From positions 1 through 63,720 of IMG/VR virus record IMGVR_UViG_3300042562_000446: a DNA stretch of 63,720 nucleotides, one strand, 5' to 3'. A program made the position numbers and the translations under genes. This DNA comes from a virus. Shown here piece after piece: positions 1 through 3,929 of the stretch (position 1 is its first letter; each line of letters begins with the position of its first letter). The notes under the pieces are model-generated. The model was not told the origin of the DNA. It was given only the letters and a program-made list of their open reading frames with translations, and did not search any database.

Positions 1-1159
1 TTTTTTCAGAACCCTTAGCTGGTCCAGTTGCTGTTGATATTGAACCACTAGCAGCCACAGGAGTAGGAGCAGCAGCCGCAGGAGCAGCAGCCGCAGGAGC
101 AGCAGCCGCAGGAGCAGCAGCCGCAGGAGCAGCAGCCGCAGGAGCAGCAGCCGCAGGAGCAGCAGCCGCAGGAGTAGGAGCAGCGGCAGCAGCCGTAGTA
201 GTAGAAGCAGCAGAAACTGTAGGAGCAGCAGCCGCAGGAGTAGGAGCAGCAGCCGCAGAGACTGGATTTCCCTTCACAGCCTGAGCAGGATATTCATTAG
301 TGACAACAGGTGGTGTTGGGGGATTTGAAGACACAGGAGACGTAGAGCTGGATTCATCTTTCTGTGCTTGTGAAAATAAAGACATTCCCATTTTTTTTGC
401 AGATTTCAACGCATCAGTTAATGGATTTAATTTATCACCAATTGTTCCAAAATTTTTTGCTGCGGCTTTTACTGCTGGTTTGGCCGCTTTAACAACGCTC
501 ATCAATCCAGATATTATATTTTTACCAATACCATATTCCGGTATTTTTAATGTATATTCGTTGTTCTTCGTCTTTATAATCTTATTAGTAATCTGATTTG
601 TTAATGATAGATCTACTAACTTCTTTACATCTGTTTTTGGTAAAGATATAAGCTTATTACCACCAGACATAACTCTAGGAGTATCGGTTGGTTTTAAATA
701 CGAATATGGAATTACAGAATTTGATTTTTCATGAGGAGATATAAGCTTATTACCACCAGACATAACTCTAGGAGTATCGGTTGGTTTTAAATACGAATAT
801 GGAATTACAGAATCTGATCCTCCAGAAAGAGTTCTTACGATAGTTTCTGGACCATCACCCTTTACTTCTCCAGTTAAAGCTGCTTCTTTCTTATTGCCAG
901 ACCTCAATATAGTTACAATCGGAGATTTTGCAAAACCACCAGAAACTTTAGCAGTTGGATCATATTTTGCAGCAAGCTTGGCAATACCTGTATTATCTTC
1001 TTCTGAAATCCGATCAATACTAGGTAAAATCTCTACCATTGGCTTACCCACAGCTTCTGTGCTAGGTTCGCCGAAAAACTTGTTCATGAATGGAAGTTTT
1101 AGTACAGATTTGTACTTCTTGATGAATTTTTTTATGTTCTTGGTATGTTCTGGTTTCAT
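1..1159 (-). CDS. Repeat-rich Ala/Pro structural protein (partial, runs off left edge)
   Basis: This minus-strand frame opens with ATG at 1159 and stays open for 386 codons to the window edge, so the C-terminus is missing. The N-terminal ~25 residues are Lys-rich. Residues ~115-175 hold a near-perfect tandem copy of a 31-residue unit (SVIPYSYLKPTDTPRVMSGG and flank). Around residues 225-255 lies an Ala/Lys-rich helix, followed by a Ser/Thr/Pro linker and then at least seven perfect AAAAP pentapeptides. The start lies 3 bases after the stop of the frameshifted gp26-like product, so the two are probably translated together. I do not recognise the family. By position, directly behind a tail-chaperone-like frameshift gene, it could be a tape-measure or hub-associated protein, but that is inference. 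The plus-strand frames over it are shadows. Confidence 0.75.
   Translation of the reverse strand, partial: MKPEHTKNIKKFIKKYKSVLKLPFMNKFFGEPSTEAVGKPMVEILPSIDRISEEDNTGIAKLAAKYDPTAKVSGGFAKSPIVTILRSGNKKEAALTGEVKGDGPETIVRTLSGGSDSVIPYSYLKPTDTPRVMSGGNKLISPHEKSNSVIPYSYLKPTDTPRVMSGGNKLISLPKTDVKKLVDLSLTNQITNKIIKTKNNEYTLKIPEYGIGKNIISGLMSVVKAAKPAVKAAAKNFGTIGDKLNPLTDALKSAKKMGMSLFSQAQKDESSSTSPVSSNPPTPPVVTNEYPAQAVKGNPVSAAAAPTPAAAAPTVSAASTTTAAAAAPTPAAAAPAAAAPAAAAPAAAAPAAAAPAAAAPAAAAPTPVAASGSISTATGPAKGSEK
66..170 (-). repeat. 15-bp tandem repeat, seven perfect units
   Basis: Seven identical copies of a 15-base unit (plus strand ggagcagcagccgca) lie head to tail, and degenerate copies continue to about 270. 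In the minus-strand gene each unit encodes AAAAP. The period is a multiple of three, so copy-number change keeps the frame. Perfect DNA identity, not just protein identity, points to recent slippage expansion. Confidence 0.95.
645..813 (-). repeat. 76-bp direct repeat with 93-bp period
   Basis: Bases 645-720 and 738-813 are identical over 76 bases. The 93-base period equals 31 codons, so the protein gains one complete extra unit with no frame change. The 17 bases between the copies differ. This is a recent in-frame duplication inside the Ala/Pro-rich protein. Confidence 0.95.
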
Positions 1160-1162
1160 GGG

Positions 1163-2049
1163 TTATTTTCTCATAGCTTCATTTTGTTTTTCGATATAAT
1201 CTTTCATCATATCCATAAAGATATTTCGTTCCCACGGCAGCATTCTTTCAACCCCATCAATCGGTAACTTGTGTTCAAATATCAATTGAAAGTTTAACTG
1301 CAAAATAACACTCAGAGATGCATAACCAAGAATAATTCTAAAAAATCGGTAAATCCTCGCAATATAATTGACCGTTTTACCTTATCAGATGTCACATAAT
1401 CTATTGATACTTCTATTGTTGGAATATTTTTTATAAAATTCAACAGTATTGAGAATTGTTTTGCAGTTAACGACTCAACAAACTGAAGAACTTCTGTGTG
1501 TGGTAGATCTTTTGTGTAATAAATCTCGTCACTTGAATGAATTTCAGAGATACACAGAGCCAATAACTCTAAAACACCATCTTCTTCCTGTTTAACTTCA
1601 TACTTATTGAGAGTCAAGTATGTTTGCATTGTTGGTTGCTGTAGAACTACAGAAATATTTGAATCAATTCGTAGTTTGCTTTCCGATTTCTTGCTAGTGA
1701 TTTTTACTTTTTGCAAATCCATCGTAGTCTGCACCACTTCTTTGGTTACTGGACAGGTGATGTTGCAAACAACAGACTCTCCTACAGATTTTTCTCTAAT
1801 TTTTATAAAAAGATACTCCAAATCACAAAATGGCAAGTTTTTGCAATCGTCATTTGGTAGATTTGTCGTGCAATTATTGATGACATTTCGTATTGTCATC
1901 ATTAAGTCTTCAAATCCTGCAGTTTCCTTAGAAATCATCAAACTTTTTTCTTCACGGACTACAAATGGACGATATGTCACTCTTGTCTGAGAAAATGGTA
2001 AAATCTGAGTGTACTTTGGGGTATTTTCAATCAATAATTCTTTTAACAT
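1163..2049 (-). CDS. 26: gp26-like baseplate/tail assembly protein, -1 frameshift product (295 aa)
   Basis: The zero-frame ORF starts at 2049 and stops at 1312 (245 aa, ending ...FLVMHL). The sequence reads GAT TTT TTA at codons 235-237, a T_TTT_TTA slippery heptamer at 1345-1339. Slipping back one base after codon 237 gives 58 more residues to a stop at 1163. This extension contains LPIDGVERMLPWERNIF and an amphipathic helical tail, which resembles the C-terminus of T4-type gp26/gp51 baseplate-hub assembly proteins (pattern ...LxxxExMxPWExxIY...). The protein would therefore be whole only by frameshift, like lambda G/GT tail chaperones. The shorter 245-residue form would be made as well. A one-base assembly error in the T6 run would also explain the sequence. 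The family call is moderate; the frame relationship is seen directly. Confidence 0.65.
1339..1345 (-). promoter_or_regulatory. Candidate -1 ribosomal frameshift site (U UUU UUA)
   Basis: The minus strand reads T TTT TTA in the correct zero-frame phase for tandem -1 slippage, the same heptamer as in HIV-1 gag-pol. The zero frame stops 24 bases further on (TGA at 1314-1312), while the -1 frame stays open for 58 codons with family-like sequence. I saw no strong stem-loop or pseudoknot directly downstream. Confidence 0.6.
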
Positions 2050-2063
2050 AAGCTAATTCACTT

Positions 2064-2660
2064 TCAATCTGAGGTTTTTTGTTCTTTTTGTACTTTATAG
2101 TAACGATAAATCATATTAACACTAAATTTTAACACATTGTTGAATCCGTTTAATGATTCAAATTGAGTTGGGACAATTTCCATTGGTATGCAGCCATATA
2201 ATTCATATTTGAGTGGTGTTGTATCTATGTTGTTAGCAATAGATATTGCTTCTATTTCCACTTTTCCAATAACATCTTCATAAAATCTAACTCTATTGTT
2301 GAATACTGGTACTGGATCAATTATACCACCAGATTTTGCAAATATAGAAGATTGCCAGTCTTCGAAGTAACGTCTGCTTGCCCAAGATTCTTCTATCATA
2401 AATTCTAGGAGATTTCCTGAGTATTCAATGCCATATGGAATTGGAATTATCGAAGCAGATCCAGATAATACATCTTGGTATATTTTAATCTTAGCAGTGG
2501 GAACCTGAGCAAGTCCACATAAAAATATGTGCGGTTCATCTATCTGTTCTCCATTTCTTTGTATTGACACTCTAAAACGAGAGGCATGCTGTAGCCCATT
2601 ATTTTTGCTGATATATTCCATCAATCCCGCTGGAGTTCCGTCATGTAGGGGACTAGCCAT
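2064..2660 (-). CDS. Tail-tube-fold protein (gp19/gp54-like)
   Basis: 198 residues. The opening MEYISKNNGLQHASRFRV, the PIPYGIEYSGN segment, the 'FEDWQSSIF' helix and the final 'LKFSVNMIYRYYKV' strand follow the layout of T4-type tail tube (gp19) and tube-initiator (gp54) proteins: N-terminal strand, central loop with IPIPYG, and C-terminal beta strand. A separate canonical tube gene lies at 41644, so this paralogue more likely acts at the baseplate as tube initiator (gp54 role). It starts right after the gp4 stop and ends 14 bases before the gp26-like start, within one minus-strand operon. An AAAGGAAAG Shine-Dalgarno precedes the ATG. The gp54 role is inference from family and position. Confidence 0.6.
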   Translation of the reverse strand: MASPLHDGTPAGLMEYISKNNGLQHASRFRVSIQRNGEQIDEPHIFLCGLAQVPTAKIKIYQDVLSGSASIIPIPYGIEYSGNLLEFMIEESWASRRYFEDWQSSIFAKSGGIIDPVPVFNNRVRFYEDVIGKVEIEAISIANNIDTTPLKYELYGCIPMEIVPTQFESLNGFNNVLKFSVNMIYRYYKVQKEQKTSD

Positions 2661-3101
2661 TTATTTCTTTCCTTTGAATAAGTCTTTTTCCGTCAAAACC
2701 ACAAATTTCCACCCATTCGCATGACATAATTTTTTTGCTGATTCCCACTTAGACTTATTTATCTGAAATTGCACAGTCTCTGTGAGGAATGTTTTTTTAC
2801 TCTTTTTTCCTCTTATTGGTTCTTCTGTTTGCTTTGCTGGTTTAATTTCAACTACCAGAGTTTCTACCATATTGTTCTTTTTCATCTCAAACAGGAAATC
2901 TGGATAATATCTGTGTATTTTGTCATCAATGGGGGAAACATAGGGAATAACCAATTCTTCACTAGACCATCTCAAAATATTTTGGTTTTCGTCTAAATAT
3001 TTACAGAAAGTTCTTTCCCAAAGTGATCTACATATGATGTTGGCAGAATTGCCAATATATTTTTGTGGGTTTTTGGGATTAAACTTACTCTTATAAGGCA
3101 T
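2661..3101 (-). CDS. 4: Head completion protein gp4 (nuclease-like)
   Basis: 146 residues, from the ATG at 3101 (MPYKSKFNPKNPQKYIG). The longer in-frame start at 3167 would run into the opposite-strand gene and adds a non-conserved tail. The residues RSLWERTF, a DxxxxILRWSSEE stretch, YPDFLFEM (Asp of the nuclease core) and VVEIKPAKQT (E-x-K) follow the T4 gp4 / TnsA-like endonuclease pattern. T4 gp4 (also called gp50/65) completes the filled head before tail joining. It is first in the minus-strand operon, and its start codon lies only 9 bases from the divergent gp48 start. Confidence 0.85.
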   Translation of the reverse strand: MPYKSKFNPKNPQKYIGNSANIICRSLWERTFCKYLDENQNILRWSSEELVIPYVSPIDDKIHRYYPDFLFEMKKNNMVETLVVEIKPAKQTEEPIRGKKSKKTFLTETVQFQINKSKWESAKKLCHANGWKFVVLTEKDLFKGKK

Positions 3102-3110
3102 AAATTTTAA

Positions 3111-3929
3111 ATGGCTATACAGTTTCCAGATCCAAATTCGTCTGATATTGCTATTTATGACAAACAAGTTGCTGCTTGGGTAAGATTTAGGTGTACTTCA
3201 TTTAATACTCTAGCAAAATACCGAGTTAATTTCGAAGAATCTAAAGATCCTAACGATAACTATATCCTCCCTCTTCAAAGATATGCTGCACCAAACGTAG
3301 CAAGTTATGAAGATGCTGAACCAAGCAAAAGTGATATGATATTCGGTGGAATACGAGATGCTTTAACTGGAGATTTTCAAAAAATAAGAAGTATAGGTTC
3401 TAGTTTGGGTGGGAATATTATAGCTGATACAATAGCTGGAGCTATGGGTGAGGGCATGGTACAAACTTCATTGAGTGATCTTGGTTTCAAAAACACAGCA
3501 AAACGTGTACACAGTTTTGGATTTAGTTTATATGCAAAAAATGCTAAAGATGCAATAAATTTAGATACAATAGCAAATGGATTCCAAACCAGATTATATC
3601 CTTTTCTTTTCTCGGACGTTCAGACAAAACCACCACCGATGTGGGATATTAAAATTGTTCCTAATGGTGGAAAAGGAAACTCTAAAGTGCTTAGTAATAA
3701 TATAGGATTATCTGTTTTAAGTAATGTGTCTATAAATCGATTAGATAAACTTGGTCCAGTTTTAACAACCAATGATTACTTTTTGGGATTAGATATCACT
3801 GTATCTTTTACCGAAATAGAACCATCAATGAGAACATGGTCATTGATGGAAGGTTCTGATCACGAAAGTATCGTAAGTCGAAGTAGAGCATCATATACTA
3901 GCGGTGGTAAACCCAACAAAGAACTATAA
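3111..3929 (+). CDS. 48: Baseplate tail tube cap gp48
   Basis: 272 residues, starting MAIQFPDPNSSD. The layout fits T4-type gp48, the protein that caps the central baseplate and seeds the tail tube: short N-terminus, a Gly-rich middle (IADTIAGAMGEG, residues ~105-118), then a tube-like beta domain with KRVHSFGFSLYAKN, RLYPFLFSDVQ and a final LDITVSFTEIEP strand. T4 gp48 is longer (364 aa). The stop overlaps the next start (TAATG at 3927-3931), so gp53 is translationally coupled. The call rests on motif pattern and position beside gp53. Confidence 0.65.
   Translation: MAIQFPDPNSSDIAIYDKQVAAWVRFRCTSFNTLAKYRVNFEESKDPNDNYILPLQRYAAPNVASYEDAEPSKSDMIFGGIRDALTGDFQKIRSIGSSLGGNIIADTIAGAMGEGMVQTSLSDLGFKNTAKRVHSFGFSLYAKNAKDAINLDTIANGFQTRLYPFLFSDVQTKPPPMWDIKIVPNGGKGNSKVLSNNIGLSVLSNVSINRLDKLGPVLTTNDYFLGLDITVSFTEIEPSMRTWSLMEGSDHESIVSRSRASYTSGGKPNKEL
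3152..3159 (-). promoter_or_regulatory. Late-promoter-like box CATAAATA facing gp4
   Basis: On the minus strand bases 3159-3152 read CATAAATA, one mismatch from the T4 late consensus TATAAATA. It lies inside the gp48 coding region, antisense, about 50 bases before the gp4 start. This is the only visible room for a promoter of the minus-strand operon, because the two divergent start codons are 9 bases apart. Confidence 0.45.

Follow-up and report, generated by a model that had tools for sequence, protein, structure and literature searches.

A probable programmed −1 frameshift in the tail assembly chaperone gene of a T4-superfamily myophage

In virus record IMGVR_UViG_3300042562_000446, from a T4-superfamily myophage, one gene very probably encodes a tail assembly chaperone (TAC) of the lambda G/GT type, whose two products, judging from sequence, are made by programmed −1 frameshifting. 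The window is the whole stretch of DNA analysed, 63,720 nt, positions 1 to 63,720 of that record. A frameshift of this kind, yielding a short and a long chaperone, had been proposed in the initial annotation, and the slippery heptamer, the −1 gp51 frame and an upstream Shine-Dalgarno-like (SD-like) element were all found conserved in very distant relatives.

Slip site, products and gene neighbourhood

The features of the locus are listed here in order of transcription.

2064..2660, minus strand: upstream gene for a tail-tube-like protein (phrog_45 tail tube, E 4e-14; PF23849 at 2e-4, below its cut-off)
1312..2049, minus strand: zero-frame gene for the gp26-type short tail assembly chaperone (TAC-N), 245 aa (open reading frame, PF12322, phrog_150, predicted fold)
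1354..1358, minus strand: SD-like GAGGA, putative stimulator (GAGG ends 9 nt upstream of the heptamer; anti-SD duplex −5.9 kcal/mol)
1339..1345, minus strand: slippery heptamer T_TTT_TTA, in phase (relatives have T_TTT_TT[C/T/A] at the corresponding position)
1163..1342, minus strand: gp51-type C-terminal extension of the predicted long product TAC-NC, 58 residues and stop (phrog_634; same −1 frame in relatives; alignment with T4 gp51)
1312..1314, minus strand: zero-frame stop TGA, end of the short product
2..1159, minus strand: downstream open reading frame (ORF), open at the window end, candidate tape measure gene

The gene begins with the ATG at 2049, and its zero frame ends with TGA at 1314-1312. 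The heptamer lies at 1345-1339 in the X_XXY_YYZ phase (codons ...GAT TTT TTA GAA...), exactly 24 nt before that stop. The −1 frame is open from 1342 to a stop at 1165-1163, so that 58 residues follow the slip site and the long product would reach 237 + 58 = 295 aa. The early end of the zero frame at 1312, the in-phase U_UUU_UUA 24 bases 5′ of it, the 58-residue continuation and the product lengths of 245 and 295 aa had all been given in the initial annotation, and every number agrees.

Since blastn with the region found no match among isolate phages, we used protein searches instead. The zero frame matched PF12322 (T4_baseplate) at E 5e-42 and 144.5 bits (curated cut-off 24.5) across profile positions 2-218 of 219, and phrog_150 at E 9e-43. 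Searched alone, the −1 extension matched phrog_634, ‘baseplate hub assembly catalyst’ (gp51), at E 6.4e-13 over positions 58-113 of 121, and also the last 43 positions, the C-terminus, of phrog_23772; the long product would therefore be a gp26-gp51 fusion. The extension had earlier been described as family-like: the family match is real, but the family is gp51, other than gp26.

The predicted structure of the window gp26 (pLDDT 90.6) was compared with 998 re-aligned chains. The HK97 tail assembly chaperone 2ob9 ranked first, 83 of its 104 residues aligning within model residues 1-94 at Z 7.2 and rmsd 3.8; 3fgx came second (Z 6.9), and the next row reached only 2.7. Given this gap and the independent context, the model makes a TAC fold likely for the N-terminal 94 residues, with moderate support at Z below 8. 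Identity to the HK97 chaperone is only 6%, and the match leaves the remainder of gp26 uncovered, a large extra C-terminal part beyond the HK97-like segment. A profile of gp26 had no significant match among PDB sequences. As a stand-in for the 295-residue product we folded a T4-type gp51, which is read in one frame; the model (pLDDT 82.8) has a similar order of elements and three additional C-terminal helices, and it found no PDB match at E <= 0.001, the best Z of 4.9 being to unrelated proteins.

The downstream ORF (2-1159) matched no tape measure or other family, and is a candidate for its position after gp51 and its Ala/Pro-rich and Gly-rich hydrophobic segments. Among near relatives it encodes 611-708 aa. 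One cause of this length variation is a 30-residue unit (VIPYSYLKPTDTPRVMSGGNKLIS...) present in two copies in the window and three in the near relative L001 (3891-5804; relatives L001-L006), and such repeat-driven change could alter tail length. In Pelagibacter phage HTVC008M the large gene that comes after gp51 and one small ORF clearly matches tape measure families; in phiM12 the neighbours on either side are annotated as tail tube and tape measure genes. With the tail-tube-like gene upstream in the window and the tape measure genes of relatives, the order tube, chaperone, tape measure is likely in the window, if not proven there. Beyond the tail-tube-like gene, the product of 2661-3167 (minus strand) is a head-closure protein of gp4 type with an additional match (E 1e-19) to PF08722, a TnsA-like endonuclease domain.

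Conservation of the site in relatives

Relatives were collected by similarity to the gp26 protein, the heptamer playing no part in their selection. The comparison covered 100 loci (the window, 19 isolate genomes and 80 IMG/VR loci), or 70 non-redundant sequences at 80% amino acid identity. The isolates were cyanophages, Pelagibacter phages Mosig and HTVC008M, phiM12, OLIVR6, ORM_20, PhiW-14, SRB7757, Aeh1, AS-szw and KVP40, so that cyanophages and Pelagibacter, rhizobial, Delftia, Aeromonas and Vibrio phages are represented. The 80 IMG/VR loci scored highest among at least 597, which biases them toward window-like and cyanophage-like members.

All 100 loci carry T_TTT_TT followed by C, T or A, with gp51 in the −1 frame and 3-27 nt from the heptamer to the end of the zero-frame stop. 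Conservation of the heptamer in relatives was a check suggested in the initial annotation, which had also named two findings that would speak against a frameshift, a run of seven Ts in the reads, or relatives in which the frame is unbroken and the slippery site is missing. Neither was encountered: none of the 100 frameshift-type loci has such an unbroken frame, and six further IMG/VR contigs from other metagenomes (95-100% protein identity) keep both the T6 run and the TGA exactly.

These contigs also bear on the simplest alternative, a sequencing or assembly error in which one T was lost from a seven-T run in a single open frame. The site is indeed a homopolymer, and one extra T would join the frames, but the six contigs have exactly six Ts, and the same frame break stands in the same place in 19 isolate genomes that different groups sequenced and in 80 further contigs. 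We have rejected homopolymer error on this conservation of the frame break and the T6 run; its probability is close to nil.

Within the same genes the heptamer is specific to this place. It occurs at the site in 70/70 non-redundant relatives, against 10 of 230 other Phe-Phe or Phe-Leu dipeptides, and its background elsewhere in these genes is 0.00065 per codon. In all 70 a T precedes the Phe-Phe (or Phe-Leu) codons, as the third base of one of six codons (AGT, GAT, TCT, GCT, AAT and ACT). From synonymous codon usage the log10 P of this is about −27.6 assuming independence, a value that is overstated because the sequences are related, though the direction is clear. The window is at the tail of the spacing distribution, with 27 nt from the heptamer to the end of the stop (1338-1312, minus strand) as in 4/70 relatives, 6 nt being the spacing in most; the last slip codon TTA, as in the window, is likewise found in only 4/70.

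The residues encoded in the −1 frame directly 3′ of the slip site are conserved (Leu in 66/70, His in 60/70), and in most genes they come ahead of any ATG. By this residue conservation, the −1 frame past the stop is under selection as protein. The same residues weigh on a second alternative, that gp51 is a separate gene with its own start after the gp26 stop, translated by re-initiation or coupling, with the heptamer incidental. Most deposited records treat gp51 in this way, many with a separate CDS of 134-189 nt, and two Ackermannviridae phages, Ds20CZ and EspM4VN, lack the heptamer and have a stop that overlaps a −1 ATG (TAATG). However, half of the 70 relatives lack an ATG among codons 1-15 of the −1 frame, where residues 1-12 are nevertheless conserved, and in the window the extension has its first TTG at codon 13 and its first ATG at codon 33, both beyond the conserved residues. 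As the early −1 codons are conserved and an ATG is often absent, independent initiation fails to explain the conserved part. The heptamer is, moreover, kept in 70/70 across differing amino acids, and T4 gp51 is a full gp26-plus-extension protein. We therefore hold a separate gp51 gene to be very unlikely.

Five Ackermannviridae relatives (L104, 2720-2902; L122-L125) have gp51 in the −1 frame and no heptamer, with A_ATT_TTC_ATY_TAA instead and, in two of them, TAATG. A slip site of another kind, or initiation coupled to the gp26 stop, may operate in these phages.

For the programmed frameshift, the putative stimulator appears to lie upstream. A purine-rich, SD-like stretch forms an anti-SD duplex of −5 kcal/mol or stronger at 77% of the 70 sites, against an in-gene background of 9%. 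The stretch encodes a Glu-Gly (or Lys/Arg-Gly) pair, yet its codon choice is skewed as well: GAG is the Glu codon in 38 of 47 Glu-Gly pairs at the site, compared with 33% GAG overall and 5/31 before GG elsewhere. A similar SD element lies 5′ of the frameshift site in dnaX. Downstream of the site the window shows no stable RNA structure (z about 0), and across the family the signal is weak (mean z −1.35 vs −0.45 in the control); a 3′ stem-loop or pseudoknot was rejected as the main stimulator. Against the frameshift reading stand this structural result, the unmatched downstream ORF, the gp51 model with no PDB match, the five Ackermannviridae relatives lacking the heptamer, and the slip site itself: U_UUU_UUA slips less well in Escherichia coli than A_AAA_AAG (PMC5009743).

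A third alternative places the slip in transcription, with RNA polymerase slipping on the T6 run so that some of the mRNA gains one base. A homopolymer is a possible polymerase slip site, but usual transcriptional slippage sites are longer than six or seven Ts, and a ribosomal mechanism suits both the strict codon phase and the constant spacing of the SD-like element. Polymerase slippage is in our estimate very improbable, and we retain ribosomal frameshifting as the reading of the site.

T4 and other phages with separate gp26 and gp51

T4 gp26 (208 aa) aligns to the short form over 203 columns and ends at the slippery Phe-Phe, whereas T4 gp51 (249 aa) aligns across the whole long form over 228 columns (hhalign probability 97; hmmsearch 1e-14 in a two-sequence search). 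The phrog_150 alignment agrees, gp26 extending to 235 and gp51 to 280 of its 282 positions, and both T4 proteins belong to PF12322. With gp26 matching the short and gp51 the whole long product, T4 and its close kin have a separate gene for each form.

Two separate genes, gp26 and gp51, were found in T4, 44RR, Henu6, EC-F2 and three further IMG/VR phages, and the gp26 of T4, 44RR and Henu6 has neither the heptamer nor a gp51 frame. The earlier remark that T4 does without this mechanism is thus borne out, and extends to 44RR, Henu6 and EC-F2. Conversely, T4 gp51 as a query found no second, independent gp51 in the frameshift-type genomes apart from one chance-level place in phiM12. In Enterobacter phage EC-F2 (L108, 2001-3294) gp51 and the gp26 homologue are neighbours on one strand and overlap by 8 nt; in T4 the two genes are on opposite strands. 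The EC-F2 pair may preserve a tandem duplication. In locus L120 (2501-3246), a T4-type gp51 has an internal frame break near residue 120, away from the position of the slip site, which is probably a sequencing error or a sign of a decayed gene.

In a tree, the frameshift-type proteins split from the gp26 and gp51 of the separate-gene phages (support 98/95) and gp51 forms one clade (100/99); gp26 itself does not resolve, and some branches are very long. The pattern fits one duplication on the T4 line, its direction unproven. We consider it probable that the ancestor of the T4 superfamily already had the −1 frameshift, boosted by a conserved SD-like element, and that a single replacement took place on the T4 line, where duplication of the chaperone gene gave gp26 (short) and gp51 (long). 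Some of this history may have been described before by Vladimirov, Gautam and Davidson (Virology 2022, 566:9-15), whose title, as cited in PMC12846349, announces that TAC genes of T4-like phages were identified and suggests a non-frameshift mechanism; from that title, the genes concerned may be gp26 and gp51.

Proposed mechanism and relation to known systems

In the mechanism we propose, most ribosomes would stop at the gp26 stop and release TAC-N of 245 aa, while a minority would slip back one base on T_TTT_TTA, enter the gp51 frame and complete TAC-NC of 295 aa. Pairing of GAGG with the anti-Shine-Dalgarno of the translating ribosome is a probable aid to this slippage. The last gp26 helix would lead, in TAC-NC, into gp51 as a small helical domain. 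If the proteins act as lambda gpG/gpGT do, the tape measure protein would be coated by numerous short copies and a few long ones, with the gp51 portion bringing in the subunits of the tail tube. The frameshift is absent from T4 and its nearest relatives, in which the diverged homologous genes gp26 (short) and gp51 (long) provide the two forms.

The predicted arrangement is like that of lambda gpG/gpGT and P2 E/E+E′, where one gene near the tape measure gene carries a −1 slip near its 3′ end and gives products with a shared N-terminus. The slip site and the protein size differ; the likeness is one of gene arrangement, with no sequence relation claimed. T4 itself shares the window's families, PF12322/phrog_150 corresponding to the short product and gp51 to the long one, but in two separate genes without a frameshift, where the window has one gene and a −1 site. 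The Pakpunavirus/Vandenendeviridae TAC (PMC12846349) is like the window's in belonging to myophages, in its conserved poly-T −1 site and in a −1 frame usually annotated as hypothetical; its motif is GTTTTT and its virus family is other than the window's. The same 2025 paper, in citing earlier work, refers to poly-T frameshift signals as known in TAC-N genes of T4-like phages. As far as these sources go, the frameshift in T4-like chaperone genes has been largely described before, and its principle is not new.

The review by Atkins et al. (2016) describes the G-T frameshift as conserved in long-tailed phages ‘except T4’ (PMC5009743). The window locus and its relatives indicate that most of T4's superfamily keeps the frameshift; as far as sequence can tell, this arrangement is the rule there. 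By tblastn the family is present in more than 500 deposited phage genomes. Among 18 annotated frameshift-type records, the long product is annotated in none, gp51 being either given an artificial start or missed. Sullivan et al. (2010) reported that cyanophage gp51 has only about 20% of the length of T4 gp51 and that gp51 is missing in Aeh1 (PMC3037559). Both observations are explained by gp51 being read in the −1 frame, and in Aeh1 the gp51 frame is present and unannotated.

For a long time T4 gp26 and gp51 were listed as hub components or a ‘hub assembly catalyst’ of unexplained action. Correct annotation would give the chaperone pair and pointers to candidate tape measure genes in cyanophages, and the result is of use for annotation and T4 hub genetics. 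If the frameshift is ancestral, T4 would be the derived exception.
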